From an uncultured Lachnospiraceae bacterium (lineage in GTDB: Bacteria > Bacillota > Clostridia > Lachnospirales > Lachnospiraceae): a stretch of 37,329 nt of DNA. Under the pieces are notes generated by a model, which was not told where the DNA came from, did not search any database, and saw only the letters and a list, made by a program, of their open reading frames with translations. Location of the stretch: assembly GCA_944381505.1 (NCBI GenBank), contig CALWLK010000032.1, positions 1 through 37,329 on the forward strand, given 5' to 3'. Made by a program: the position numbers and the translations under genes. Positions within the stretch are counted from its first letter, which is position 1; every line of letters begins with the position of its first letter. Below are positions 18,304 through 31,981 of the stretch, one piece after another.

Positions 18304-18365
18304 GACAGGGAAAGTATCGGCAGAGCTTTTTCGGATAAAGGATGCGAAAGGAAAGGAAAATCAAA

Positions 18366-18734
18366 ATGAAGAATTATACCATAACAGTAAACGGCAACGT
18401 ATATAACGTGACAGTAGAGGAGGGACAGGCAGCACCCGCAGCCGCAACACCTGCAGCCGCAACACCCGCACCCGCAGCTGCAGCACCCGCCGCAGCGGTA
18501 AAGCCCTCGGCACCTGCAGGCGGCATAAAAGTCGAGGCTCCCATGTCGGGAAAGATATTGGCTGTGAAGGCCTCGGTAGGCCAGACTGTAAAGAGGGGAG
18601 AGGCGATACTTGTCCTTGAGGCCATGAAGATGGAGAACGATATAGTTGCTCCGGAGGACGGAACCATAGCCTCGATAAACTGCGCCTCGGGAGATCAGGT
18701 GGAGTCCGGAGCCCTTCTCGCAACGCTTAATTAA
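18366..18734 (+). CDS. Biotin carboxyl carrier protein of the decarboxylase (MmdC/GcdC/1.3S-like)
   Basis: A 122-residue protein that carries the biotin arm between the carboxyltransferases and the Na+ pump. It has an N-terminal beta strand segment (YTITVNGNVYNVTVEEG), an Ala/Pro linker at about 22-50, and a biotinyl/lipoyl domain at about 51-122 with the biotinylation motif EAMKMEND, target Lys at residue 88. The length matches MmdC and the 1.3S subunit of transcarboxylase. ATG 18366 is preferred over ATG 18342, because GGAAAGGA is placed eight bases upstream of it and the extra residues from the earlier ATG are not family-like. It lies between the gamma-like and beta subunits. Confidence 0.92.
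   Translation: MKNYTITVNGNVYNVTVEEGQAAPAAATPAAATPAPAAAAPAAAVKPSAPAGGIKVEAPMSGKILAVKASVGQTVKRGEAILVLEAMKMENDIVAPEDGTIASINCASGDQVESGALLATLN
18421..18500 (+). repeat. GC-rich Ala/Pro linker repeat within the biotin carrier gene
   Basis: The linker is encoded by imperfect direct repeats of units such as GCAGCCGCAACACC (Ala-Ala-Thr-Pro). It is a flexible hinge expected between the N-terminal segment and the biotin domain. Simple repeats of this type change length easily between strains. Confidence 0.6.
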
Positions 18735-18755
18735 AAGAAAGAAGAGGCGATATAA

Positions 18756-19904
18756 ATGGATTTAGGAGCTACCTTTTCAAACCTGTTGGGACAGACGGCC
18801 TTTGCAAGTCTGACAGTAGGCAATTTCATTATGATAGCAGTGGCATTCCTGTTTCTCTACCTGGCGATAAAGAAGGGCTTTGAGCCTCTTCTTCTGATAC
18901 CTATAGCCTTCGGAATGCTTCTGGTAAACATATACCCTGATATAATGTATTCTCCCGAGGAGGCGGGAGGGGAGACAGGAGGGCTCCTGTGGTATTTCTT
19001 TAAGCTTGACGAGTGGACCATACTGCCTTCTCTCATATTTATGGGCGTTGGAGCGCAGACAGACTTTGCTCCGCTCATAGCCAACCCCAAGACCTTCCTC
19101 ATGGGAGCGGCAGCCCAGTTCGGAATATATGCCGCATATTTTGTGGCTATACTCCTCGGGTTTAACGGCAAGGCGGCGGCGGCCATCTCCATAATAGGCG
19201 GAGCTGACGGACCCACTTCCATCTTTCTTGCAAACAAGCTGGGAGAGACGGCTATTTTGGGCCCTATAGCAGTGGCTGCTTACTCCTACATGGCCCTTGT
19301 GCCCATTATCCAGCCCCCTATCATGAGAGCTATGACCACACCAAAGGAGAGAGCCGTCAGGATGGACGCTTTAAGGCCTGTATCTAAGCTTGAGAAGATA
19401 CTGTTCCCTATAGTGGTCACAACAGTTGTATGCCTTATCCTTCCTACCACAGCTCCCCTTGTAGGTATGCTGATGCTTGGAAATCTCTTTAAGGAGTCGG
19501 GAGTTGTAAAACAGCTCCAGGAGACTGCGGCAAACGCCCTGATGTTCATAGTCGTAATACTTCTCGGCACCTCTGTGGGAGCCACCACCAGCGCCGAGGC
19601 CTTCCTCAACATGGACACAATAAAGATAGTGGCATTGGGACTTATTGCCTTCGCCTTCGGAACGGCGGCGGGCGTATTCCTCGGAAAGATAATGTACAAG
19701 CTTTCGGGAGGAAAGATAAATCCCCTCATAGGCTCGGCGGGCGTTTCGGCGGTGCCGATGGCCGCAAGAGTTTCCCAGAAGGTCGGAGCGGAGACAGACC
19801 CCACGAACTTCCTTCTCATGCATGCCATGGGCCCCAATGTGGCGGGCGTTATCGGAACCGCAGTTGCAGCGGGTACGTTTATGGCAGTCTTCGGAGTGAA
19901 GTAA
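18756..19904 (+). CDS. Na+-transporting decarboxylase beta subunit (OadB/MmdB/GcdB)
   Basis: The membrane subunit that decarboxylates carboxybiotin and exports Na+. The 382-residue protein has about nine to eleven membrane segments. The family signature IIGGADGPTSIFLANKLG (about residues 148-165) carries the Asp known to be essential for Na+ coupling in OadB. The second conserved region is INPLIGSAGVSAVPMAARVSQ with HAMGPNVAGVIGTAVAAGT near the C terminus. Length (canonical about 375-430) and context fit well. It lies 22 bases after the biotin carrier and 77 bases before the OadA-type gene. The sequence does not tell which decarboxylase (oxaloacetate, methylmalonyl-CoA or glutaconyl-CoA) it serves. 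Confidence 0.93.
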   Translation: MDLGATFSNLLGQTAFASLTVGNFIMIAVAFLFLYLAIKKGFEPLLLIPIAFGMLLVNIYPDIMYSPEEAGGETGGLLWYFFKLDEWTILPSLIFMGVGAQTDFAPLIANPKTFLMGAAAQFGIYAAYFVAILLGFNGKAAAAISIIGGADGPTSIFLANKLGETAILGPIAVAAYSYMALVPIIQPPIMRAMTTPKERAVRMDALRPVSKLEKILFPIVVTTVVCLILPTTAPLVGMLMLGNLFKESGVVKQLQETAANALMFIVVILLGTSVGATTSAEAFLNMDTIKIVALGLIAFAFGTAAGVFLGKIMYKLSGGKINPLIGSAGVSAVPMAARVSQKVGAETDPTNFLLMHAMGPNVAGVIGTAVAAGTFMAVFGVK

Positions 19905-19950
19905 AAAGCTAATTATAAAACAGAGATAAAACACAAAGTTCAGTTTCATA

Positions 19951-19977
19951 TGCGGACTTAAACCGCAAACGGAGGTT
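19951..19977 (+). promoter_or_regulatory. Small hairpins around the ribosome-binding site of the OadA-type gene
   Basis: TGCGG (19951-19955) can pair with CCGCA (19963-19967). Alternatively AAACC (19961-19965) can pair with GGTTT (19973-19977), which touches the Shine-Dalgarno GGAGG (19971-19975). The two are mutually exclusive and could adjust translation of the last operon gene. The helices are only five pairs, so chance is possible. Confidence 0.25.
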
Positions 19978-19981
19978 TAAC

Positions 19982-21388
19982 ATGGCAGATACACAAAAAA
20001 GGCAGGTAAAGATAGTTGAGACTGTATTGAGAGATGCTCATCAGTCCCTCATTGCCACCCGCATGCCTACCGAGGAGATGCTTCCCATAATAGACAAGAT
20101 GGACAAGATAGGCTACTATGCGGTGGAGTGCTGGGGAGGAGCTACCTTTGACGCTTCTCTGAGATTTTTGAAGGAGGACCCTTGGAAGAGATTGAGGCTC
20201 CTTCGAGACGGCTTCAAAAACACAAAGCTCCAGATGCTTTTCAGAGGACAAAATATCCTCGGATATAATCACTATGCCGACGACGTAGTGGAATATTTCG
20301 TTCAGAAGTCGGTGGCAAACGGAATGGATATAATCCGTATCTTTGATTGCCTTAACGATATAAGGAATCTTAAGACAGCGGTAAACGCCACCAAGAAGGA
20401 GGGAGGACATGCTCAGATAGCTCTCTGCTATACCTTGGGAGACGCCTACACCATGGATTACTGGAAGAACCTCGCCAAGAAGGTGGAGGACATGGGTGCC
20501 GACTCCCTGTGCATAAAGGATATGGCGGGACTTCTCCTTCCCTATGAGGCTGAGAAGCTGGTGAAGGCCTTGAAGGAGGGAACGGATATCCCCATAGATA
20601 TACACACACATTATACTTCGGGAATGGCCGCAATGACCTATATGAAGGCGGTGGAGGCAGGAGCCGATATCATAGATACGGCCTGCTCGCCCTTTGCGCT
20701 GGGAACATCACAGCCTTCCTCCGAGGTTATGGTAAAGGCCTTCCAAAACACGCCTTATGACACAGGACTCAACGTGGAGAAGATGACGGAGATCTGCGAC
20801 TACTTTGAGCCCTACAAGGAGGAGTGCCTCAAGTCCGGGCTTTTGAATCCCAAGGTAATGGGAGTAAATGTGAACACCTTAAAGTATCAGGTTCCCGGAG
20901 GAATGCTCTCGAACCTTGTAAAGCAGCTTGCAGACGCAGGCAAGTCGGATAAGCTTCAGGAGGTTTTGGAGGAGATACCGAGAGTGAGAAAGGACTTCGG
21001 TGAGCCGCCCCTCGTAACACCTTCGTCTCAGATCGTCGGAACTCAGGCGGTCATGAATGTGCTCTCAGGGGAGAGGTACAAGCTGGTTCCCAAGGAGTCC
21101 AAGAAACTCGCCAAGGGAGAGTTCGGACAGTCCGTAAAGCCCATGGATCCCGAGGTGCAGAAGAAGATACTCGGGGACGAGGAGCCTATCACTTGCAGGC
21201 CCGCGGACCTTATAGAGCCGGAGCTTCCGAAGTACGAGAAGGAGTGCGCTCAGTGGATAAGGCAGCCTGAGGATGTGCTCTCATATGCTCTTTTCCCCGC
21301 TGTGGCAAAGGAATACTTTGAGTATAGGGATGCTCAGGACACCGGCATAGACAAGAAGGCCGCAAAGGACGGGGCATATCCGGTATAA
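19982..21388 (+). CDS. OadA/5S-type carboxyltransferase subunit (oxaloacetate decarboxylase alpha, no biotin domain)
   Basis: A 468-residue DRE-TIM-type carboxyltransferase. It begins KIVETVLRDAHQSLIATRMP with the metal-binding Asp of the family, then GATFDASLRFLKEDPWKRL, YCTLG-like ALCYTLGDAY, the biotin-accepting Lys region DSLCIKDMAGLL and the metal ligands in DIHTHYTSGMAAMTYMKA. A PYC_OADA-type conserved C-terminal region follows (about 300-450). Classical OadA (about 590 residues) ends with its own biotin domain; this one stops before it, so it uses the separate carrier encoded upstream, as the 5S subunit of transcarboxylase does. Substrate is oxaloacetate or pyruvate. It closes the operon; a strong terminator follows. 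Confidence 0.9.
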   Translation: MADTQKRQVKIVETVLRDAHQSLIATRMPTEEMLPIIDKMDKIGYYAVECWGGATFDASLRFLKEDPWKRLRLLRDGFKNTKLQMLFRGQNILGYNHYADDVVEYFVQKSVANGMDIIRIFDCLNDIRNLKTAVNATKKEGGHAQIALCYTLGDAYTMDYWKNLAKKVEDMGADSLCIKDMAGLLLPYEAEKLVKALKEGTDIPIDIHTHYTSGMAAMTYMKAVEAGADIIDTACSPFALGTSQPSSEVMVKAFQNTPYDTGLNVEKMTEICDYFEPYKEECLKSGLLNPKVMGVNVNTLKYQVPGGMLSNLVKQLADAGKSDKLQEVLEEIPRVRKDFGEPPLVTPSSQIVGTQAVMNVLSGERYKLVPKESKKLAKGEFGQSVKPMDPEVQKKILGDEEPITCRPADLIEPELPKYEKECAQWIRQPEDVLSYALFPAVAKEYFEYRDAQDTGIDKKAAKDGAYPV

Positions 21389-21793: not shown

Positions 21794-21822
21794 TTGACAA
21801 TCAGTTGTCAATTAACTAATAT
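21794..21822 (+). promoter_or_regulatory. Strong promoter with overlapping operator for the aldehyde dehydrogenase gene
   Basis: TTGACA (21794-21799) and TAATAT (21817-21822) are separated by exactly 17 bases: a near-consensus sigma-A promoter. TTGACAA (21794-21800) and TTGTCAA (21805-21811) form a perfect 7+4+7 inverted repeat that starts at the -35 and covers the front of the spacer. Occupancy of this site would block RNA polymerase, so repression is the natural reading. The XRE-cupin regulator encoded two genes on is the obvious candidate. AAGGAGGGAAG precedes the ATG at 21874. Confidence 0.75.
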
Positions 21823-21873
21823 TGTAACCGTAGTAAATATATTATAAATAGTATATTTTAAGGAGGGAAGCAT

Positions 21874-23355
21874 ATGAATCCGATGGATTATATCAGGAAA
21901 GAGCCTTATGAGCTTTTTATCAATGGAAAGCGTGTTACCCCGGAGGAAAAAGCGACTTTTCAGGCCATAAATCCTGTAAACAATGAGCCCTTCGCCACTA
22001 TATATAAGGCGGGGAGAAAAGAGACCGAGGCGGCCATAGACGCTGCAAGGTATGCCTTTGATAAGGGCCCTTGGGGAAAGATGTCCCCGAGGGAAAGAGG
22101 AGATCTCCTTCTTAAGGCGGCGGAGCTCTTGCAGGAGAGACTCGAGGAATTCGCCGCAGTGGAGACCATGGAATGCGGAAAACTCTACGGCAGCGCGTAC
22201 TACTATGACGGGGCAAAATCCGTGGACGCACTGAAATACTATGCCGGGGCGGCCAGATGTCTTAAGGGAGAGGTAGTGCCCATAGACAATGATACGGTAA
22301 ACATGGTTCAGTATTATCCCCACGGGGTAGTGGGAGAGATACTTCCTTGGAACGGACCTTTCATGATGGGCTGCCAGAAGATAGGAGCTATACTCGCAGC
22401 GGGAAATACCTGCGTTGTGAAGCCCTCCTCATGGGCTTCCCTGACGATGCTTATGTTTGCCGAGCTCCTGAAGGAGGCGGGTTTTCCTGACGGAGTGGTA
22501 AACGTTGTCACCGGCTCGGGAGCGGTAGTGGGAGATATACTCGTAAAAAGTGAGAAGGTAGACATGGTAGCTATGACGGGAGGGACCGCCACAGGAAAGG
22601 CAATAATAGAGTCCTCCAAGGATACCGTAAAGGATATAGCCCTTGAGCTGGGCGGAAAGAGCCCTAATATAGTGTTTGACGATGTAAATGTGGACGAGGC
22701 TGTGAAGTGGGCCAAATTTGCCTTCACCCTGAACTCCGGCGAAGTATGCGTTTCCGGAACAAGGCTCATCCTGCAGAGAGGCATCTATGAGGAATTCCTT
22801 GAAAAGCTGAAGGCAGAGTGCGAGAAGGCTGTACCGGGAGACGGATTCGACCCTGATGTTACCCTCAGTGCCCTCATACACAAAGAACATTGCGACGAGG
22901 TGTGGAGATATATTGAGTCAGGAAAGAAAGAGGGGGCAAGGCTCATATGCGGAGGAGAGCATTACACTGATCCCAAGCTTCAAAAGGGAAATTTCGTTCC
23001 CATCACAGTCTTTGCCGATGTGACTCCCGATATGACCATATTCCAAGAGGAGATATTCGGGCCGGTGCTCTGCGTGACACCCTTTGATACAGAGGAGGAG
23101 GCCATAGAGATAGCCAACGGAACGAAATACGGCCTTGCAGGCGGCGTGTTCACCAAGGATATGAAGAGAGGACTCAGGGTGGCGCAGGCTATAAAGGGCG
23201 GTCAGATATACATCAATTCTTACTTCTCAAAGGGTATGGTAGAGTCGCCGGGAACAGGCTGGAAGCAGTCGGGCCTTGGCGTAGCGGGAATAAAGAAGTA
23301 CATGATCTCAAAGACCATATTCATAGACACAAAGGACGGGGATGTTCCCTTCTAA
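21874..23355 (+). CDS. NAD(P)-dependent aldehyde dehydrogenase
   Basis: A 493-residue ALDH-superfamily protein that oxidises an aldehyde to its acid. Landmarks are GEILPWNGPFMMGCQKIGA (about 154-172), the cofactor lysine in VVKPSSWASL, MTGGTATGKAI, general-base E258 in ELGGKSPNIVFDD, nucleophile C292 in NSGEVCVSGTR, and QEEIFGPVLCVTPFD. In most members the residue before the VC is Gln (GQ.C); here it is Glu (GEVC). Length is typical. It is first in the cluster with the regulator, amine-type permease and selenoprotein reductase, so it may oxidise an aldehyde produced from, or feeding into, the reductase substrate; betaine-aldehyde-like substrates are possible but unproven. Confidence 0.9.
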   Translation: MNPMDYIRKEPYELFINGKRVTPEEKATFQAINPVNNEPFATIYKAGRKETEAAIDAARYAFDKGPWGKMSPRERGDLLLKAAELLQERLEEFAAVETMECGKLYGSAYYYDGAKSVDALKYYAGAARCLKGEVVPIDNDTVNMVQYYPHGVVGEILPWNGPFMMGCQKIGAILAAGNTCVVKPSSWASLTMLMFAELLKEAGFPDGVVNVVTGSGAVVGDILVKSEKVDMVAMTGGTATGKAIIESSKDTVKDIALELGGKSPNIVFDDVNVDEAVKWAKFAFTLNSGEVCVSGTRLILQRGIYEEFLEKLKAECEKAVPGDGFDPDVTLSALIHKEHCDEVWRYIESGKKEGARLICGGEHYTDPKLQKGNFVPITVFADVTPDMTIFQEEIFGPVLCVTPFDTEEEAIEIANGTKYGLAGGVFTKDMKRGLRVAQAIKGGQIYINSYFSKGMVESPGTGWKQSGLGVAGIKKYMISKTIFIDTKDGDVPF

Positions 23356-23378
23356 AATAAAAAAGCATCTGTGAACCC

Positions 23379-23416
23379 TTGAAAATACTTTCAAAATCCT
23401 GTAATTATAATATAAT
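23379..23416 (+). promoter_or_regulatory. Inverted repeat and -10 region upstream of the XRE-cupin gene
   Basis: TTGAAA (23379-23384) and TTTCAA (23389-23394) form a 6+4+6 inverted repeat. TATAAT occurs twice just downstream (23406-23411 and 23411-23416). The spacing to a good -35 is not ideal for either. The repeat resembles the operator at 21794-21811 in half-site (TTGA..) and 4-base spacer, consistent with autoregulation. Confidence 0.4.
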
Positions 23417-23480
23417 GACAGTTAAAGCTGAAAAGTATAAGGAAAGTATTTAAATTATAAGCGGGAACAGAGGTGCATAT

Positions 23481-24077
23481 ATGGGAGAGAATTACACAGA
23501 CGATTTCAATATAGGCGCAAAGATAAGAAAAATGCGCAAGATCAGAGGGCTCACTTTGGAGAAGTTTGCGGAGGATACAGGCATGAGTTACTCATACCTC
23601 TCCGAGCTTGAGAATAACAAACATTCCATTTCCATCAATAATCTGCAAAAGATAGCGAGTTACTTTCAGATAGACCTGATACACTTTCTGGAGAAGACAG
23701 AGAGGAAGAATACACTCATCAGGAAAAAGGACAGGAACACCCTTAAGACTGAGGATGGGATACTTTTTCAGGCCATTTCCTCCGAGGAGACCGAAAACAT
23801 GCAGATTACCTTTGTGACTCTGCCGCCTGATACTCCCAAGAAAAAACAACAGCATATACACAAACATCCTCAGGGGGAGGAGTTTATCACGGTCACGAAA
23901 GGGGAAGCCACAGTCGTGATCGAAGAAGAGAAATATGTTCTGAAGGAGGGGGATTCTGTCATTTTTCCCTCCAACAAGGAACATGTTATCTTTGCCGAGG
24001 ACAAAGGTGCGGAGCTTATACTTATCGGAGCCCCGCCCTACGGCAGGAATTATCTTGACAAGCTCAAAATGAATTGA
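23481..24077 (+). CDS. XRE-family transcriptional regulator with C-terminal cupin domain
   Basis: A 198-residue regulator. Helix-turn-helix residues about 12-68: IGAKIRKMRKIRGLTLEKFA, then GMSYSYLSELENNKHSIS. The C-terminal cupin_2 domain (about 110-190) contains HIHKHPQGEEFITVTKGEA and GDSVIFPSNKEHVIFAE, with histidines and a glutamate in place for a small-molecule or metal site. Proteins of this architecture (PuuR-like) usually sense the substrate of an adjacent amine or amino-acid catabolic operon. It sits between the dehydrogenase and the permease, each with its own upstream control element. It is the likely ligand-responsive switch for this cluster. Confidence 0.88.
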   Translation: MGENYTDDFNIGAKIRKMRKIRGLTLEKFAEDTGMSYSYLSELENNKHSISINNLQKIASYFQIDLIHFLEKTERKNTLIRKKDRNTLKTEDGILFQAISSEETENMQITFVTLPPDTPKKKQQHIHKHPQGEEFITVTKGEATVVIEEEKYVLKEGDSVIFPSNKEHVIFAEDKGAELILIGAPPYGRNYLDKLKMN

Positions 24078-24090
24078 TTCCGCTCGAAAC

Positions 24091-24124
24091 AAAAACCTCC
24101 TCCTGAATAAGGAAGGAGGTTTTT
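24091..24124 (+). promoter_or_regulatory. Terminator-like hairpin that buries the permease ribosome-binding site
   Basis: AAAAACCTCC (24091-24100) pairs with GGAGGTTTTT (24115-24124). TCCT (24101-24104) pairs with AGGA (24110-24113) around the loop GAATA, with a single bulged A (24114). The total is 14 pairs. The right arm contains the Shine-Dalgarno AAGGAGG and a U5 run that ends one base before the ATG at 24125. It can act as an intrinsic terminator, as a translation block, or both. Confidence 0.7.
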
Positions 24125-25477
24125 ATGAGTAATGAAACCAAGGGATTATCTCCTAAAGCTTGTATAATGATGGCCATAGGTGGAATGGTGGGAAGTTCCA
24201 TCTTCACTCTCTCGGGAGTGACCTACAGTATGGCAGGAGCGGCGGCCGTGCTGACCTGGCTTTTTGCAGGAGTGATACTTCTCCTCTATGCCTTGAACAT
24301 AGCGGAGTTGGCCACCACCTTCCCAAAATCAGGGGGCATATATGTTTATCCCCACGCCGTCATAGGAAAGACAAAGAAGGGAAAGGACTTCGCAGGGTGG
24401 ATAGCCGCATGGTCATGGCTCAACGTGAGCATATTCGGCACAACTTTTTCAGCTCTATGCGTCAGCACATATCTCGGGCAATTCATACCGGCTGTGGGGA
24501 ACAGCAGAGCTCTTCAGATACTCATACCCATACTTTGGATAGCCCTGACTTGGTTTTTAAACGCTCGGAGCGCAAACGCTTTCGGAAGCATTCATAATAA
24601 GATAACCTATGCTCTTCTCTTTGTATTGGGCGTATATATAGTTTTGGGTTTTGTAAGCGGTAAGGGAGAGAATATGACTCCCTTTGTGAGCGGGACCATG
24701 GGAGCCTCGGGAATAGTTGCAGGCATACCCATAGCAATGCTGGGATACGGATCAATCATTGCCGTGGCATCCTTCGGAGGAGAGATAGAAGACCCCAAGC
24801 ACAACATACCGAGGATAATAGGAAAGGCTGTGCTCATAACAGTGATCGTATACTGCCTGATACTTATATCCACCTTCCGCATGGCGTCGGTGGATTCCCT
24901 TATAGGGGCAAACGCTCAGTATTATCCCCTTGCCTTCGCCCTCGGAAGTGTAATGACAGGAGATATGGCTTGGGTGGTTTCAATAGTGCCTTTGGCGGCG
25001 CTCCTTGCCCTGACCACAAATATGAGCATAATGCTCATGGATGCCAGCCGCACTGTAATGGCTACGGCACAGTCAGGATTTTTGCCCAAGAAATTGGGAG
25101 AGCTTCATCCGGAGAGACACACCCCTATAATGGCGCTTTCGGTGGTCGCCGTCATATGTGTGATACTGTCTCTTAACCCCGACCTGATAAATATCATTAT
25201 CAACGCCGGCTCCATCTGTTCGGCTATCACAGTAGCCATTATAGCAGTTACTTTGATGACTCTCAGAAAAAAACAGAGGACAGGGGAGATAAAGGATGAG
25301 GGAGAGTTCAGGGTACCGGGAGGAAATGTATTCCCCATCATAACCTTGATAGTCATATTGATCACTCTCGTGCTCCTTTACTTCGGTGACGGAGGCTCGA
25401 CTTCATACCTTGTGGCTGTGCTGTGGTATGTCATAGGATTGGTTATCTTCGGGCTTAAAAGCCTTTTAAAGAAATAA
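24125..25477 (+). CDS. APC-superfamily amino acid/amine permease
   Basis: A 450-residue transporter with about 12 membrane segments. The first has the APC signature MMAIGGMVGSSIFTLSGVTY (about 15-34), and the unwound GxG-type motif GMVGSSIF fits substrate backbone binding. Conserved later segments include GYGSIIAVASFGGEIEDPKHNIPR (about 200-223). It probably exchanges or symports an amino acid or amine. The gene lies immediately upstream of the selenoprotein reductase and so probably imports its substrate. Its ribosome-binding site lies in a hairpin (24091-24124). A further hairpin (25481-25499) follows before the next gene. Confidence 0.85.
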   Translation: MSNETKGLSPKACIMMAIGGMVGSSIFTLSGVTYSMAGAAAVLTWLFAGVILLLYALNIAELATTFPKSGGIYVYPHAVIGKTKKGKDFAGWIAAWSWLNVSIFGTTFSALCVSTYLGQFIPAVGNSRALQILIPILWIALTWFLNARSANAFGSIHNKITYALLFVLGVYIVLGFVSGKGENMTPFVSGTMGASGIVAGIPIAMLGYGSIIAVASFGGEIEDPKHNIPRIIGKAVLITVIVYCLILISTFRMASVDSLIGANAQYYPLAFALGSVMTGDMAWVVSIVPLAALLALTTNMSIMLMDASRTVMATAQSGFLPKKLGELHPERHTPIMALSVVAVICVILSLNPDLINIIINAGSICSAITVAIIAVTLMTLRKKQRTGEIKDEGEFRVPGGNVFPIITLIVILITLVLLYFGDGGSTSYLVAVLWYVIGLVIFGLKSLLKK

Positions 25478-25480
25478 AGC

Positions 25481-25499
25481 GGGGTCTCAAGGAGATCCC
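25481..25499 (+). other. Intercistronic hairpin between permease and selenoprotein genes
   Basis: GGGGTCTC (25481-25488) pairs with GAGATCCC (25492-25499) around a 3-base loop, with one G-U pair. No T-run follows, so it is not a classical terminator. It may protect or separate mRNA segments and so set different levels for the permease and the reductase. AGGAGACTTATA then precedes the ATG at 25522. Confidence 0.4.
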
Positions 25500-25521
25500 T
25501 ACATAAAACAGGAGACTTATA

Positions 25522-26856
25522 ATGCTTAAAGCGGTTTATTATATCAATCAGTTTTACGCAGGAATAGGCGGAGAAGATAAGGCCGACACGGAACTCGGAT
25601 ATTTCGACGGAGCCAAGGGACCTGCTCAAGCGGCAGGCGCCCGCCTTAAGGGCGAGATGGAGATTGTAAGGACCATCTACTGCGGAGACAATTACGTAAA
25701 TACAGATGCAAAATATGAGAAGATGCTTCCGGAGCTCAAGAGGCTTATAGAGGAGGTAAAGCCTGATGTTTTTATTGCGGGTCCTGCCTTCAACGCCGGA
25801 AGGTATGGAGTAGCCTGCGCGAAGGTATGCGACTACGTAAGGAGAGAGCTTCATATCCCGAGCGTCACTGCCATGTGGTGGGAGAACCCTGCCATAGGCA
25901 TGTACGTGAAGGACAACTACATCCTGCCAACGACGGAGACTGCGGCGGGTATGGGAAAATCCCTCCCCAAGCTGGCGGATTTTGCCTTAAAGCTTGCCAA
26001 AAAAGAAAAGATAGGTCCTGCCCGCAAAGAGGGCTACTTTGCAACAGGACACAGGTACAATGAGTACAATGAAAAGACCGGAGCCGATAGAGTTGTGGCC
26101 ATGCTCTTGGATAAGCTTAACGGGAGAGAGTACAGGACGGAGGTACCCATGAGGGGCTTTGAGCAGGTTCCCCCGGCAGCCAAGGTTGAAAATATGTCCG
26201 AGGCTGTGGTGGCCCTTATAACCACAGGAGGCCTGGTGCCTGTGGGGAATCCCGACAAGCTCAAGCAGGCTTTTGCGGATAAATACGGAAAATATGATAT
26301 CTCGGGCGTTGACGAGCTGAAAAAGGGCGTCTATGAGTCCATCCACGGAGGATATGATACAACGGCTGCAAGCGAAGACCCCCACAGGCTCATACCTTTG
26401 GACGAGATGAGGGAGCTGGAGAAGGAGGGCATAATAAAAAAGACCTTCAAGTATTTCTACACTCTTTGCGGTGTCGGAACGAACGTGGAAAACAGCAAGG
26501 AGATGGGAAGGAGGATGGCCGAAGATCTGAAGGAAAGCGGTGTCTCCGCCGCCATACTCACCTCCACATGAGGAACCTGTACGCGTTGCTGTGCAACGCT
26601 GGCTAAAGAGCTGGACAGAGCGGGTATACCCAACGCCCATATCACGGCATTCACCTCTGTGGCTCAAAGCGTCGGTGCGAACAGGATCGTATTCGGCGGA
26701 GATTTCACATCCCCTGCGGGAAATCCCAAGCTGCCTTTGGACAGAGAAAAGGCATACAGACGGAAGATACTTGAAAAATGTATAGAGGCTTTGACTACAG
26801 ATGTGGAAAAACCTACCATCTTCACGGTCGATGATGAGAAAGGAGGCGAGGATTAA
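25522..26856 (+). CDS. Selenocysteine-containing GrdB-like subunit of a glycine/sarcosine/betaine reductase-type enzyme
   Basis: A 444-residue selenoprotein if TGA 26569-26571 is read as selenocysteine (residue 350). The first 349 residues follow GrdB/GrdF/GrdH closely: AVYYINQFYAGIGGEDKADT at the start, AGPAFNAGRYGVACAKVCDY, ALITTGGLVPVGNPDKLKQA, DPHRLIPLDEMRELEKEG and the run-up VSAAILTST. After the TGA the same frame continues GTCTRCCATLAKELDRAG, VGANRIVF and GNPKLPLDREKAYRRKIL, again GrdB-like, to the TAA at 26854. A compact hairpin (26583-26599) begins 11 bases after the TGA. Such proteins cleave C-N bonds reductively, forming a selenoether passed to selenoprotein A. The stop overlaps the next ATG by one base. 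No grdA, grdC, grdD or sel genes are in the window. Confidence 0.93.
26583..26599 (+). other. Bacterial SECIS-like hairpin for selenocysteine insertion
   Basis: GCGTTGC (26583-26589) and GCAACGC (26593-26599) form a perfect 7-bp stem with loop TGT, starting 11 bases after the TGA codon. Its 17-base size and its distance from the TGA are similar to the minimal SelB-binding hairpin of E. coli fdhF. The apical sequence differs, as expected for Firmicutes SelB. It lies within the coding sequence. Confidence 0.75.
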
Positions 26857-28181
26857 TGCCCGAGATGAAAAAAACTCTTAAGAGAAAATACTTTGACGTA
26901 AGGGATGCAGTCTTTGCCGAAAAGAACGACTACAGAGATCATATCCTCTATGTGTCAAAGGAGGAGCTCAAAAAGGAGATAAGGCCCCTCATGAAGGCTG
27001 TCAAGGATGTGGATTTCGAGATAGTAAAGCCCGGGGAGAACTGTAGGATAATACATCTTCTGGACACTATCCAGCCCATGTTAAAGACAGAGGGGGAGGG
27101 GACGCAGTATTCGGGCTTCTTCGGGGACCCTGTGATGGCCGGGACCGGAGTGACGAACCTTTTGAGAGGCTTTGCCGTAATGGAAAGCGCTGCCCTTCCC
27201 TGGGATGAGAGCAGCGCCTCCAGTGGCTTGTTATATCCGAGGGACGCCATAATGGATATGACAGGCCCCATAGCGGATATGACACCCTTCTCAAAAACGG
27301 TGAACTTGGTTATACTTTATGAGCTTGAAGAAGGAAAATCCTCTATAGAGTATGACAGCGAGATCCGAATGATAGGCATAAAGGTGTCGACTTTACTCGC
27401 CGCCCTCACAGTAGGTCTTGAGGAGGATGACAGCGAGGACTTCTCTATAGATGAGGAGAATAAGGACCTTCCCAATGTGGTGCTGGTATGGCAGTGCCAG
27501 AATCAGGGCCCCTACTCCAACACCTATTTGTACGGACAGTCCATAGACGATATAGTTCCCACCCTTCTGCACCCCAACGACATGCTGGACGGATGCGTCG
27601 TCAGCGGAAACTATGTCTGGCCGGCCTTCAAGGTGCCCACTTACCTACATGTAAACCACCCCATACTGCTGGAGCTTTACAAAAAGCATGGTAAGGAGCT
27701 TAATTTCAAGGGAGTAATCTTCTGCAGGAGCCACAATCCCTCAAACTGGCACAAAACCAGATGCGCCAACATCGGGGTAAAGATAGCCCAATTTTTGGAC
27801 GCAGACGGCCTTATAATGGCTTGGGAGGGAGGCGGAAACGCCGCTACAGACGGTATGCTGACTATTCAGTGTGCTGAAAAACACGGAATAAAGGCCGCCA
27901 CCATAACCTTTGAGTTCGGAGGAGTTGACGGAACGGAGGGCATACTTCTGGTGGACGATGTTCCGGAGGCCGACGCCATATGCAGCGGAGGCTCCATAGA
28001 GAAGCCCTATACCATACCTGATGTGGAGCGAGTGGTGGGAGGAAAGACTTTCAGGCTCAACAAGGAGTCGGGGGGATTTTTCCCTCCTGCCGATAAGAGC
28101 CTCACCTTTGAACAGACCACACACTTTTATTTGGGAGGAAACCAATCCGGAGCAAGCACTCTCTTTGCCGAGGCTTATTAA
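26856..28181 (+). CDS. GrdE/GrdG/GrdI-like reductase subunit lacking the processing cysteines
   Basis: A 441-residue homologue of the proprotein of protein B of glycine/sarcosine/betaine reductase (Gly_reductase family). Recognisable stretches are VKPGENCRIIHLLDTIQPML, AIMDMTGPIADMTPFS, YLYGQSIDDIVPTLLHPNDM, LYKKHGKELNFKGVIF and ADGLIMAWEGGGNAATD. In GrdE, cleavage at an internal Cys near residue 242 creates a pyruvoyl group that binds the substrate. The GrdE sequences I recall read NCVxACDK there; this protein reads NYVWPAFK (residues 252-259), so both cysteines are missing. The nearest is C247. Either it is not processed, or it uses another residue. Partner of the upstream selenoprotein (TAATG overlap; AAAGGAGGCGAGG upstream). 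A terminator follows. Confidence 0.88.
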   Translation: MPEMKKTLKRKYFDVRDAVFAEKNDYRDHILYVSKEELKKEIRPLMKAVKDVDFEIVKPGENCRIIHLLDTIQPMLKTEGEGTQYSGFFGDPVMAGTGVTNLLRGFAVMESAALPWDESSASSGLLYPRDAIMDMTGPIADMTPFSKTVNLVILYELEEGKSSIEYDSEIRMIGIKVSTLLAALTVGLEEDDSEDFSIDEENKDLPNVVLVWQCQNQGPYSNTYLYGQSIDDIVPTLLHPNDMLDGCVVSGNYVWPAFKVPTYLHVNHPILLELYKKHGKELNFKGVIFCRSHNPSNWHKTRCANIGVKIAQFLDADGLIMAWEGGGNAATDGMLTIQCAEKHGIKAATITFEFGGVDGTEGILLVDDVPEADAICSGGSIEKPYTIPDVERVVGGKTFRLNKESGGFFPPADKSLTFEQTTHFYLGGNQSGASTLFAEAY

Positions 28182-28199
28182 ATAAAAATTTTATATGAT

Positions 28200-28269
28200 A
28201 AAAGCGGAGCTGTCATTGGCGGTCAGGCGAAAGTTTTTAAGCTTGTCCGCAAATGACAGCTCCGCTTTT
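28200..28269 (+). terminator. Very long-stem terminator after the reductase genes
   Basis: An 18-bp perfect stem: 28200-28217 (AAAAGCGGAGCTGTCATT) pairs with 28252-28269 and ends in TTTT. The 34-base loop has GCGG (28219-28222) and CCGC (28247-28250), which can extend a second helix. It works in both directions by sequence. It ends the selenoprotein cluster. Confidence 0.8.
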
Positions 28270-28414: not shown

Positions 28415-30436
28415 ATGACTAAGAGACTATTAAGGAGAGCGGTGTGTGCGCTTTTGGCGGCGGGCATTGCGTTTGCACCGCCTGCGACATCATTATCTGA
28501 CATAAATACAGCTTATGCCGCCGAGTGGACGGGAAGAGTCAATGCCACTTCCCTCAATGTCCGCAGCGGCCCGGGGACGAGCTACAGCTCCGTCGCCCGC
28601 CTCTCAAATAATGCAGAGGTCACAGTATTATCTCAGGAGAACGGAAGCGACGGCTATGTGTGGTACAAGATACGCTGGTCAGGCGGAGAGGGTTATGCGA
28701 GAAGCGACTATATCAGGGAGCCTGTGGCCTACACCACCGATGCTGCCTTTGAGGAATACCTCAATCAGCAGGGTTTCCCGGAGAGCTATAAGAACGGCTT
28801 GAGAGAGCTCCATGCCCAATATCCCAATTGGATATTCACAGCACAGCACACAGGACTTAGCTGGAATGACGTTATAAATGAGGAGAGTATTATAGGAAGG
28901 AATCTGGTCCACAAGGACTCCATATCATCATGGAAGTCAATAGAGCAGGGAGCCTATGACTGGGACAACTCAACTTGGGCGCCCCTTGACGGAAATGCTT
29001 GGAATCCCGCTTCACGGGAGATAATAATGTATTACATGGATCCCAGAAATTTCCTGACAGACCCCTATATCTTCCAATTTGAGCTTCAAAGCTACAATGA
29101 GTCTACACAGACGAGAGACGGTGTGGTAAAATTAGTTGAGGGAACCTTCCTTGCAGGGGAGGCGATAGTCCCCATAGAAGGCTCGCAGATAGCGGGAGGC
29201 ACTCCCGTTGACAATACGTCGCAGACATCTGCGTCAGGATCGGAAACGACGGGCACGGGCTCTCAGACTTCCACAGGAGGAGTCGTTGTCGGAAGCGGGC
29301 CCGCTTCCTCGGACTCGGGCTTTGTAAATTCAGGGCCGGGAGCTGTCTTGAGCGCTCAAAGCACGCAGGAATCTGCCCCCGGAATCATAATAAGCCCCGG
29401 GGCCGGAGGCACCGGAGTTGCCGAGACTCAGAGCTCACAGGGAGCGGAAAATACTTCTCAGTCTGATACCTCATCGACTGTACCCATGAAGTCTGTTCCC
29501 TACGTGGATATAATAATGGAGGCGGCAAGGCAATCAGGGGTGAGCCCCTATGTGCTCGCTTCAATGATAGTGCAGGAGCAGGGCAAGAACGGAGGCTCGG
29601 ATCTCATATCCGGAAATAACGCTTCCTATCCGGGAATATATAATTTCTTTAATTCAGGGGCCTATGCCCATGACGGAATGGGAGTGGTGGAGGCGGGCCT
29701 CAATTACGCCTCTCAGGCTTCTCAGACCGGAACGGATCTGAGGCCTTGGAACAGCATTGAAAAGGCTATAATAGGAGGAGCCATATCCTACGGGCTCAAC
29801 TATGTAAAGCAGGGGCAGGACACCTTCTACTTGAAGAAATTCAACGTCCAGGGCAATAATAAGTATCAGCACCAGTATATGACGAACGTTCCCGCTGCAG
29901 CGTCGGAGGGAGAGAAGGTATCCTCGGCATACAACGATCAGATAAAGTCAACAGCCTTGACCTTCAAGATACCGGTTTATACCGATATGCCTGAGACAGC
30001 CTGTGCGGCGCCTGCGACAGACGGAAGCCCCAACAACAAGCTGAGGACTCTGTCCATAGACGGATTTACGCTGACGCCCACCTTCAACAAGGATACGTCA
30101 AGCTACAGCCTTATAGTTGACAGCTCCGTAACGAGCCTGAACATAATCGCTCAGGCCATCGACTCGGAGGCAACTGTAAGCGGAGCCGGAACTGTGGATA
30201 TAGCCTCGGGAATCAGCAGCGTCACCATAAGAGTGACCGCAGGAAACGGAAGCACAAGAGACTACGTTATAAATATAAGCAGGAGCGGCGGCTCAACGCC
30301 GGTTCAAAACACGACGGAGGCTCCTCAGGAGACCGGAGGAGCGGTGACGGATCAGCCGGCCGTAAGTCCTGTGTCGCCCTCACAGCCTGAGAACGGCTCG
30401 CAGAGCTCACAGCCGTCTGTAATAATTATAGGATAG
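28415..30436 (+). CDS. Secreted SH3b / endo-beta-N-acetylglucosaminidase with cadherin-like domain
   Basis: A 673-residue exported wall hydrolase. Signal peptide 1 to about 35 (cleavage near AYA-AEW). Bacterial SH3 domain about 36-100 (NATSLNVRSGPGTSYSSVAR). A glucosaminidase-type region follows in two parts: FPESYKNGLRELHAQYPNWI onward (about 118-253), and about 359-525 with SPYVLASMIVQEQGKNGG, whose Glu near 387 is the likely acid. An insert of about 100 Ser/Thr/Gly-rich residues (about 254-358) separates the parts. A cadherin-like beta-sandwich domain (about 539-622: KLRTLSIDGFTLTPTFNKDT) and a low-complexity tail end the protein. It resembles proteins annotated as mannosyl-glycoprotein endo-beta-N-acetylglucosaminidase in Clostridia; peptidoglycan is the likely substrate. 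The next gene follows after 12 bases. Confidence 0.85.
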   Translation: MTKRLLRRAVCALLAAGIAFAPPATSLSDINTAYAAEWTGRVNATSLNVRSGPGTSYSSVARLSNNAEVTVLSQENGSDGYVWYKIRWSGGEGYARSDYIREPVAYTTDAAFEEYLNQQGFPESYKNGLRELHAQYPNWIFTAQHTGLSWNDVINEESIIGRNLVHKDSISSWKSIEQGAYDWDNSTWAPLDGNAWNPASREIIMYYMDPRNFLTDPYIFQFELQSYNESTQTRDGVVKLVEGTFLAGEAIVPIEGSQIAGGTPVDNTSQTSASGSETTGTGSQTSTGGVVVGSGPASSDSGFVNSGPGAVLSAQSTQESAPGIIISPGAGGTGVAETQSSQGAENTSQSDTSSTVPMKSVPYVDIIMEAARQSGVSPYVLASMIVQEQGKNGGSDLISGNNASYPGIYNFFNSGAYAHDGMGVVEAGLNYASQASQTGTDLRPWNSIEKAIIGGAISYGLNYVKQGQDTFYLKKFNVQGNNKYQHQYMTNVPAAASEGEKVSSAYNDQIKSTALTFKIPVYTDMPETACAAPATDGSPNNKLRTLSIDGFTLTPTFNKDTSSYSLIVDSSVTSLNIIAQAIDSEATVSGAGTVDIASGISSVTIRVTAGNGSTRDYVINISRSGGSTPVQNTTEAPQETGGAVTDQPAVSPVSPSQPENGSQSSQPSVIIIG

Positions 30437-30448
30437 ACAGGGAGTAGT

Positions 30449-31981
30449 ATGAAGAGTTTCAAGATTTTAAGACATGGATCAATATTCAAGCATTTGACGG
30501 GGGTGCTGATGATCATCGCCATGACGGTCTGCATGGTTTTCCCGAGCTTTGCCGCCTCAGGGCAGATAAGCTTCAGCGATCCCACTGCAGTGACGGGGAC
30601 AGAGGTCAACGTCACCATGAAGATCAGCGCCGACGAGGGCACTGCAATATCTGACGCAAACGTTGTGTTGAGCTATGACTCGGAGAAGCTCGAATTCATA
30701 GCCGGCACGGATGCGGACGGAGGCGCAGGCACCATAAGAGTGCACGGAGTGTCAAACGGAGGCGGAACAGCCAATCTGGAATATAATCTCAGATTCAACG
30801 CCAAGGCGGCAGGCACCGCAGCCATAAACATAAGCACTCAGGAGGTCTATGACAGCGCGGATCAGCTCATACAGATGAGCCATTTGGGAAATTCCTCGGT
30901 GAATATCTCAGCGCAGGCCGAGGCCTCCGCAAATGCGGATCTTGCATCCCTCAATGTGAGCCCCGGAAGCCTTTCGGAGAGCTTCAGCCCTGAGGTGACC
31001 TCCTACAGCGTGAGCGTGGGACCTTCAGTGGACACTCTCGTCATAGACGCACCTCCCGCAGACGGAGGAGCCAATGTTATCATCTCCGGCAATGAAGGCC
31101 TTCAGATGGGCGACAACACCATAACCGTGAGAGTGACGGCGGCGGACGGTGTCACCTCCAAGGACTATATCTTAAATGTCTCCAAGGTGGAGGGCGGAGC
31201 AGAGGCACCCGAGGGAGAAGGGGAGTCCACAGCCGAGACCATGGCGGAGCCTTCTACGGAGGGCGTAAAGCTCTCGTCAACCGGAAAGACGATCACTATT
31301 ATGACTCCCGGCTCTGATGTACAGGTACCTGAAGGCTTTAAGGCGGGAACCATATCCGTGGACGGACACAAGGTACAAGGATGGGTATGGGGCGCTGACA
31401 CAGACCCTCAGTACTGCGTGGTATATGGAATGAATGAGAACGGAGAGCTCAACTTCTACAGGTATGACATTGCCGAGAAGACGATACAGAGATACTTTGA
31501 GGATCCCCTTGCGGTGGGTTCTGTCAGCGGCGCTCAGTATACCGAGCTTCAGCAGACCTATGACAGCCTCGTGAGAGATTATGATCTCAGGTTCGTCCTC
31601 ATCTGCGTTTTGGCAATACTTGCTCTCATTTTCCTGGCGGTAATAATCTACCTTGCCCTTAAGCTCAGGAATTCCTCTGACGGAGACAAAAACTCGAGGA
31701 AGAGTACAAGTGTGAAGGAGCGCTCAAAGAGCAGGGGAAGAGCCAAAAGGTATAGTGAAGAGTATGACGAGGATGCAGAGGAAGACGCGGATCTGAGCCA
31801 TGATTACAGCTACAGTGACGAGGACCTCTCCGAGGAGGAGGGCCCTGTGCCCGACGAGACTCAGGTCATAGAGCCTGTGAGAAAGGAAACAGACCGTGAG
31901 AAGAAGACCGCTGAGGCTCCATCAAAGCCGAAGGAGGGCTCGGACATATTCGATGATGAATTCGACACCTTCGATATTTAA
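30449..31981 (+). CDS. Cell-surface protein with cohesin-like and cadherin-like domains and a C-terminal membrane anchor
   Basis: A 510-residue type I membrane protein. Signal segment about residues 12-33 (LTGVLMIIAMTVCMVFPSFA). A cohesin-like domain covers about 35-155: ISFSDPTAVTGTEVNVTMKI, DANVVLSYDSEKLEFIAG. A cadherin-like beta-sandwich follows (about 165-248: ADLASLNVSPGSLSESFSPE, DGVTSKDYILNVSK). A short unnamed domain lies at about 275-365. A membrane segment follows at about 388-408 (VLICVLAILALIFLAVIIYL), then a roughly 100-residue cytoplasmic tail that is basic first and then strongly acidic (EEYDEDAEEDADLSHDYSYS). It shares the beta-sandwich module with the glucosaminidase upstream and is co-transcribed with it, so it may dock or scaffold that hydrolase. 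No dockerin is seen. Confidence 0.75.
   Translation: MKSFKILRHGSIFKHLTGVLMIIAMTVCMVFPSFAASGQISFSDPTAVTGTEVNVTMKISADEGTAISDANVVLSYDSEKLEFIAGTDADGGAGTIRVHGVSNGGGTANLEYNLRFNAKAAGTAAINISTQEVYDSADQLIQMSHLGNSSVNISAQAEASANADLASLNVSPGSLSESFSPEVTSYSVSVGPSVDTLVIDAPPADGGANVIISGNEGLQMGDNTITVRVTAADGVTSKDYILNVSKVEGGAEAPEGEGESTAETMAEPSTEGVKLSSTGKTITIMTPGSDVQVPEGFKAGTISVDGHKVQGWVWGADTDPQYCVVYGMNENGELNFYRYDIAEKTIQRYFEDPLAVGSVSGAQYTELQQTYDSLVRDYDLRFVLICVLAILALIFLAVIIYLALKLRNSSDGDKNSRKSTSVKERSKSRGRAKRYSEEYDEDAEEDADLSHDYSYSDEDLSEEEGPVPDETQVIEPVRKETDREKKTAEAPSKPKEGSDIFDDEFDTFDI

Follow-up and report, generated by a model that had tools for sequence, protein, structure and literature searches.

A stand-alone Grd-type selenoenzyme module in an uncultured Lachnospiraceae bacterium with orthologues in the riboflavin-induced fin neighbourhood

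Gene content of the cluster

The 37,329-nucleotide stretch of contig CALWLK010000032.1 analyzed here (the window), from an uncultured Lachnospiraceae bacterium (assembly GCA_944381505.1), carries a cluster of five genes in a single orientation (plus strand, 21874-28181) that includes a selenoprotein related to GrdB. In the following, G numbers denote genomes (G000 is that of the window), L numbers denote individual loci, and C numbers denote contigs of G000. The first gene (21874-23355) encodes an aldehyde dehydrogenase (ALDH) of the FinG type (PF00171, 538 bits) and is followed by genes for a PuuR-like XRE-cupin regulator (23481-24077) and an APC permease (24125-25477). The last two encode a GrdB-like selenoprotein, FinH (25522-26856; PF07355, 472 bits), and a GrdE-like subunit, FinI (26856-28181; PF09338, 412 bits), both named after the orthologues described below; the stop codon of FinH (26854-26856) overlaps the start of FinI (26856) by one base. 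The FinH frame is open through a single in-frame TGA (26569-26571), which places selenocysteine (Sec) at residue 350 in the motif STUGTCTRC. Sec350 occupies the same position in GrdB of Clostridium sticklandii (PMC3091704). A selenocysteine insertion sequence (SECIS_4, RF01990; 26572-26609) begins directly after the TGA and scored 47.9 bits against an Rfam gathering score of 38, and the same element exceeded that score in all eight other loci of the FinH clade. The reading frames, domain matches, and SECIS_4 thus confirmed an earlier reading of this DNA (the original prediction) as five co-oriented genes, one of them GrdB-like with an in-frame TGA. Its statement that GrdA, GrdC, and GrdD are not encoded nearby also stood, as tblastn of the window (E 0.001) found none of GrdA (part after Sec), GrdC, GrdD, TrxA, TrxB, or GrdX; the same search found no FinB, FinC, or FinD.

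The cluster had also been described as framed by a strong regulated promoter and a long terminator. A hairpin at 28200-28269 (plus strand), with perfect 18-base arms (28200-28217 and 28252-28269) and a local folding energy of -55.5 kcal/mol, is a probable terminator; a terminator scan restricted to loops of 3-8 bases did not include it among its results. Upstream, a candidate sigma-70 promoter (TTGACA-17-TAATAT, 21794-21822, plus strand) matches 10 of 12 consensus positions, which is weak by itself because promoter-like matches are common in the region (25, compared with 9.7 in shuffled sequences, standard deviation 3.5). It is overlapped by a perfect palindrome (21794-21811, plus strand) that could be an operator. 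The corresponding five-gene cluster in G045 was not found to have this palindrome upstream, and a conserved operator was therefore rejected.

The G045 cluster comes from a genome assembled as one contig (96% complete) and matches that of the window in all five genes and their order, with identities of 70%, 51%, 53%, 65%, and 76%. An APC permease of the window type (63%) is also found in G477, in a full fin locus that has the usual fin permease as well, and its gene falls precisely between finG and finH; the other fin permeases are only 32-35% identical to the window protein.

Grd-type features of FinH and FinI and their partner proteins

FinH scored 519 bits against TIGR01918 (cut-off 65) and the GRDB and Gly_reductase domains cover the full length, so that, with Sec in a U-x-x-C motif and a SECIS element directly downstream, membership in Grd component B at large is clear. 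FinH nevertheless fell below every curated cut-off for a named enzyme (GrdB, 481 vs. 602 bits; GrdF, 478 vs. 800; GrdH, 454 vs. 775), and all named models matched by FinI gave scores below cut-off (GrdG, 254 vs. 780; FarE, 142 vs. 675; and two weaker ones). In a tree of 77 GrdB-type proteins, FinH belonged to a separate nine-row clade with support of 100/100, within which the window protein is sister to those of G382, G653, and G477 (96/83), all from full fin loci. A tree of the partner subunits, built by a quick method and with long branches flagged, recovered the same clade for FinI. The pair therefore lies outside the GrdB/GrdE, GrdF/GrdG, and GrdH/GrdI clades and cut-offs, and ordinary GrdB, GrdF, or GrdH membership was rejected. 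This bears out the proposal of a separate, substrate-specific reductase, and neither outcome named beforehand as contradicting it occurred: the pair joined no characterized clade, and the genome encodes the selenocysteine machinery (see below).

Close relatives are scarce. FinH matches of some kind occur in 56 of 392 genomes sampled from the order, where only G382 (71%) and G045 (65%) are near and all others are at most 49% identical. In the sample from the family, 62 of 397 genomes have a match; six besides G000 are at 56-74% (G653, G477, G382, G493, G632, and G529) and the rest at most 49%. The best GrdB-type matches in G488, a genome of the same genus, are only 48%, 42%, and 40% identical to FinH, so the trait is patchy. 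The tree also contained four long-branch GrdB-like selenoproteins in which the UxxC cysteine is replaced by serine (STUGTS; L070:9954-11255, L126:5560-6855, L121:5441-6748, and L122:9117-10424). Each falls outside the GrdB, GrdF, GrdH, and fin clades, and they possibly act on further Grd substrates.

FinI departs from its relatives at the pyruvoyl site. In a count of 66 partner subunits (duplicate L002 left out), all 45 of the glycine and sarcosine types carry SGNC, as SGNCVSAC or SGNCVAPC, and eight of the betaine type carry SGSF. FinI lacks the cysteine pair in all nine members of its clade, with SGNYVWPxF in eight (SGNYVWPAF in the window) and GGNLAWPAF in one; of the remaining rows, L070, L121, and L122 have no motif and L126 has SGTY. 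FinI accordingly does not have the SGNCxxxC pair of GrdE and GrdG proproteins. The first SGNC cysteine is residue 242 in GrdE of G280, and residue 242 is what we take to be the pyruvoyl source in C. sticklandii. Both cysteines are also missing from FarE and GrdI, neither of which is a proprotein, and Schiff-base activation applies to glycine and sarcosine (PMC10838667). Because the pyruvoyl cysteines are missing, the substrate bound by FinI should have a leaving group that departs without this activation, and the "amine-like compound" originally proposed as substrate is too loose a description, since FinI lacks the cysteines of the glycine and sarcosine enzymes. FinI is also the more remodeled subunit, as 66 of its positions, against 23 in FinH, are invariant within the clade but rare outside it (count made without the long-branch loci L070, L126, L121, and L122 and, for the partner, duplicate L002). 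Five of the 66 are tryptophans and ten lie in stretches absent from most other partners.

Known systems share parts of this arrangement. GrdB/GrdE has the same Sec in UxxC, SECIS element, and two-subunit layout, but the window pair is below the equivalog cut-off, forms a separate clade, has no SGNC pyruvoyl site, carries a 10-11-residue insert in FinI, and is not beside grdA, trx, grdC, or grdD. Like the window pair, GrdH/GrdI is a substrate-specific module apart from grdA with no SGNC site; unlike it, the window has an ALDH and no adjoining BCCT-type transporter, and FinH is only 41% identical to GrdH of the same genome. FarE/FarB, for fluoroacetate, has its own transporter, a predicted feed to shared proteins A and C, and a FarE lacking both cysteines (PMC10838667), whereas FinI is far below the FarE cut-off and the window cluster has no radical SAM gene and keeps UxxC.

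G000 is 1.80 Mb in 100 contigs and 86.6% complete. The part of the original prediction that pointed to the rest of the genome was supported for selenium. A tRNA-Sec lies on C70 (61.3 bits), followed by SelA (585 bits, cut-off 268) and SelB (363, cut-off 242), and SelD is encoded on C49 (313, cut-off 125). For GrdA, no match was obtained in the assembly. The same search was positive in 28 of 30 genomes, all chosen for carrying GrdB-type genes (about 27 of 29, since equal coordinates led G382 and G394 to be taken as one genome), and therefore the search model works; only G000 and the metagenome-assembled genome (MAG) G393 were negative. GrdC and GrdD were searched in the window and in L003, and elsewhere in G000 only as part of a DNA query from G488. 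In G488 (97% complete) one contig (L111) carries grdE, grdB, trxB, trxA, and grdA together with a single frame for grdC and grdD. Matches of this stretch to G000 end at base 8367 of C49 (8369 in length) and base 4209 of C55 (4210 in length), on either side of the grd genes. The missing GrdA thus coincides with an assembly gap, and real loss of the gene is not supported. One feature fits the gap poorly: a transporter gene inside the G488 interval (L111, 12253-13025) matches C73 of G000 at 68%, among other genes, and is either a paralogue or a sign of rearrangement. C49 also has a GrdX-like open reading frame (1166-1573, L138); the transporter gene that precedes it at the start of the contig is possibly truncated, so another Grd-type locus may have been cut off there.

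Standing alone was originally put forward as unusual, and this did not hold. G000 has a betaine-type GrdI/GrdH module with a BCCT transporter on C46 (28991-31655; L003:8989-11656) that scored just below cut-off (GrdH, 770 vs. 775; betaine_BCCT, 636.5 vs. 650), and no GrdA, GrdC, or GrdD was found in the 20 kb around it (L003). Its proteins are 90-97% identical to those of G488. The sarcosine-type module of G488 (L113; GrdF, 824.5 vs. 800) likewise has no grdA beside it, and no GrdA, GrdC, or GrdD was seen in the surrounding 15 kb. Standing alone is therefore normal for Grd substrate modules and was rejected as a sign of novelty. We infer that FinH and FinI (FinHI) draw on proteins A and C encoded elsewhere and shared, as was first suggested.

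Relationship to the fin neighbourhood

A 2026 preprint described a "flavin-induced neighbourhood" (fin) for the anaerobic conversion of riboflavin to lumichrome (PMC12934955). In its account, riboflavin induces finA-K in C. scindens, an organism that forms lumichrome; the product of F. fissicatena, which has no finHI and carries an extra aldehyde-alcohol dehydrogenase beside its fin locus, is hydroxyethylflavin; and M. intestini has the C. scindens-like form with glycine-reductase genes. The window matches that form in having orthologues of FinG, FinH, and FinI in the same order, and, as noted above, its type of APC permease lies inside a full fin locus. It differs in lacking the aldolase, alcohol dehydrogenase, RibF-like gene, and SorC-type regulator, and has the XRE-cupin regulator instead. 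The substrate, regarded as unknown in the original prediction, can thus be narrowed, since orthologues of the pair lie in a riboflavin-induced neighbourhood.

The named members of the FinH clade are Muricomes intestini (L016), Faecalicatena contorta (L014), and a Clostridiales MAG (L015, G393), and equal coordinates suggest that L016 is G382 and L014 is G493. The FinH and FinI orthologues of the window lie inside the M. intestini clade. The window ALDH is 60-74% identical to dehydrogenases of the eight other FinH genomes and at most 39% identical to every other ALDH found in a search of 15 genomes, and is therefore the FinG orthologue. FinG is thus present at 60% identity or more in all nine FinH genomes, and in all nine loci the ALDH lies upstream in the same cluster, either adjoining finH or separated from it by one or two genes.

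Seven of the nine clade genomes (G382, G653, G477, G493, G393, G529, and G632) encode the fin-type aldolase FinC, a DhnA-type class I enzyme, and in all of these but G632 its gene lies in one locus with those for a zinc-type alcohol dehydrogenase and a RibF-like protein. Two of the seven have unusual layouts. In G632, finB, finD, and finC (L164:3993-7239) and finG-finH-finI (L109:8273-12568) are on different contigs. In G529 (L110:8353-16583), finG-finH-finI come first, followed by finD, finB, a SorC-type regulator gene, and finC, and no fin-type permease was seen in the locus. In the family sample of 397 genomes, seven have FinC (at least 45% identity), seven have FinH (at least 56%), and six have both (Fisher p 9e-12, with cut-offs chosen after the matches were seen, relatedness of the genomes ignored, and the genome of the FinC query itself among the six). 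Lowering the FinC cut-off to 40% gave eight genomes, with six still shared. FinC matches of any kind occur in 32 of the 397 genomes, and most are distant paralogues. The exceptions to co-occurrence are G000, with FinH and no FinC, and G446, with FinC and no FinH. Considered as short fin variants without FinHI, G446 (FinC-like, 47%) and G545, where a FinC-like gene with a FinD-like neighbor occurs in two places (40-42%), were not counted as fin, because no FinB- or FinG-type gene was present in the stretches seen. G000 itself falls outside the provisional definition of the preprint authors (a genome that encodes FinB, FinC, and FinG orthologues): in this incomplete assembly FinG was found and FinC was not, and the FinB search covered the window only.

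In the GrdB tree the window locus and that of G045, the two with the stand-alone layout, occupy separate positions, which suggests that the gene arrangement around these enzymes changed at least twice.

Proposed flavin side-chain cleavage and its alternatives

Gene content, orthology, the Sec codon with its SECIS element, the lost pyruvoyl site, and the Sec machinery were observed directly; with the gene neighbors and the phenotypes published for relatives, they lead to a proposal in which we have middling confidence: FinG would oxidize formylmethylflavin, and FinHI, with proteins A and C, would cleave the resulting carboxymethylflavin to lumichrome and acetyl phosphate. The window module would then represent the lower half of an anaerobic pathway for degradation of the flavin side chain. 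The upper half, present in loci with the full fin set, would begin with phosphorylation of riboflavin to flavin mononucleotide (FMN) by FinB, followed by oxidation of the 4'-OH of FMN by FinD and cleavage between C2' and C3' by the class I aldolase FinC, which would give formylmethylflavin and dihydroxyacetone phosphate. FinG would convert formylmethylflavin (flavin-N10-CH2-CHO) to carboxymethylflavin (flavin-N10-CH2-COO-), to be bound by FinHI. The FinH selenolate would attack the CH2 group and break the N10-CH2 bond, expelling the alloxazine as lumichrome. As a stabilized anion, the alloxazine would be a good leaving group, so that a Schiff base would not be needed. The carboxymethyl group would pass to selenoprotein A (GrdA), and protein C (GrdC/GrdD) would release acetyl phosphate, which would yield ATP. 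Each enzymatic step of this route is a prediction. Glycine, sarcosine, betaine, and fluoroacetate, the known substrates of B components, are all X-CH2-COO- compounds (in part from PMC10838667), and on chemical grounds carboxymethylflavin would be a compound of the kind reduced by Grd-type enzymes. All seven FinC proteins keep the lysine and the GRN motif of class I fructose-bisphosphate aldolase, and all seven FinB proteins keep PTAN; with the meanings usually given to these motifs, they fit a phosphorylated FMN-type substrate, without proving one.

The model gives each fin enzyme a step, including finHI, for which the main text of the preprint offers no chemistry. It accounts for lumichrome in hosts with finHI and for hydroxyethylflavin in the host without them: if the last step were lost and the aldehyde reduced instead, hydroxyethylflavin would be the expected product, as is made by F. 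fissicatena (PMC12934955). Acetyl phosphate and a selenium requirement are predicted; the main text of that preprint contains no mention of selenium and none of the terms "acetyl phosphate," "carboxymethyl," "dihydroxyacetone," or "DHAP." Among the literature matches listed (title and start of abstract), no other paper tied lumichrome or flavin fragments to a selenoprotein or glycine reductase. More tentatively, and in our view somewhat short of probable, the whole ribityl chain would be removed anaerobically in a selenium-dependent manner, its five carbons ending as dihydroxyacetone phosphate and acetyl phosphate. In this reading, a selenoenzyme of the glycine-reductase type would sever a CH2-COO- group from the ring nitrogen of an aromatic system, and the window organism would be a scavenger that gains acetyl phosphate from flavin fragments left by other microbes or by light. 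If true, flavin would join the few known substrates of Grd-type selenoenzymes, and dietary selenium, vitamin B2, and lumichrome would be linked. The immune protein MR1 has lumichrome among its ligands.

The absence of the upper half from the window could be explained in two ways. Fragments of flavin produced by light or in other cells might be imported, possibly via the APC permease; if the upper pathway is lacking, G000 must obtain formylmethylflavin or carboxymethylflavin from outside, with this permease as a candidate importer. Alternatively, the upper half could lie on an unassembled part of the genome.

Several points weigh against the flavin proposal. FinC was not found in the G000 assembly or in the more complete, single-contig G045; FinB and FinD were searched in the window only. 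In the G045-type layout without FinC, the aldehyde must come from elsewhere or the compound must be a different one. GrdA was not found in G000 or in G393. The lysine and GRN motif also occurs in distant FinC paralogues (five non-fin paralogues were added to the comparison, and L148 was unused because of a wrong reading frame) and is a family trait. The growth benefit reported in the preprint was given by riboflavin and by neither ribose, ribitol, nor lumichrome, and its authors also offered overflow of reduced flavins or metabolic damage as explanations (PMC12934955). Structure gave no informative relative. By sequence, no solved relative of FinI was found and FinH had only chance-level solved matches (E about 0.5). 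With AlphaFold models (mean pLDDT confidence 84 for FinI and 88 for FinH, the latter with a predicted TM-score of 0.55), the fold search for FinI gave no match under E 0.001, and that for FinH gave two that barely passed this threshold (a sugar-type binding protein and MetH); with TM-scores of at most 0.24, these were not counted as meaningful. Finally, the best NCBIfam match of the window ALDH, at 471 bits and below the cut-off of 669, is betaine-aldehyde dehydrogenase.

This last result favors the strongest competitor, in which FinHI reduces a small tertiary or quaternary amine of the betaine type that the ALDH makes from an amino aldehyde and the APC permease imports as the amino alcohol, the fin link being incidental or the stand-alone layout having a different substrate. 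Betaine-aldehyde dehydrogenases are also among the best PDB matches of the ALDH, the permease and the PuuR-like regulator suit an amine, the lack of a pyruvoyl site fits betaine as well, and FinC was not found in either stand-alone genome. We consider this explanation unlikely, though it deserves to be taken seriously, as G000 already has the betaine-type module with a BCCT transporter on C46, the window pair branches from within the fin pairs and the two stand-alone members form no group of their own, and FinI is altered at its 66 positions, with the five tryptophans and the ten positions in stretches mostly absent elsewhere. Less probable still is a function of FinHI in flavin metabolism at another intermediate or in another role, such as a different cleavage stage or the overflow of reduced flavins, which the preprint leaves open (PMC12934955); the known carboxylate substrates of B components are all of the X-CH2-COO- form, and an ALDH that could make such an acid lies upstream in all nine loci. 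A drifted glycine, sarcosine, or betaine reductase would explain the strong family-level matches (PF07355, PF09338, and TIGR01918) but is very improbable given the scores below the GrdB, GrdF, and GrdH cut-offs, the separate well-supported clade, and the absent pyruvoyl cysteines.

The cluster is flanked by genes of other kinds. Directly upstream (18342-21388) lie genes for a biotin carrier and a membrane decarboxylase, both named from their sequences; a third encodes an oxaloacetate-decarboxylase-alpha-like protein that passes the PRK12331 cut-off (749 vs. 718). Downstream (28415-31981) are genes for two surface-type proteins, the first with SH3, Cadherin-like, and weakly glucosaminidase-like parts and the second 510 residues in length.

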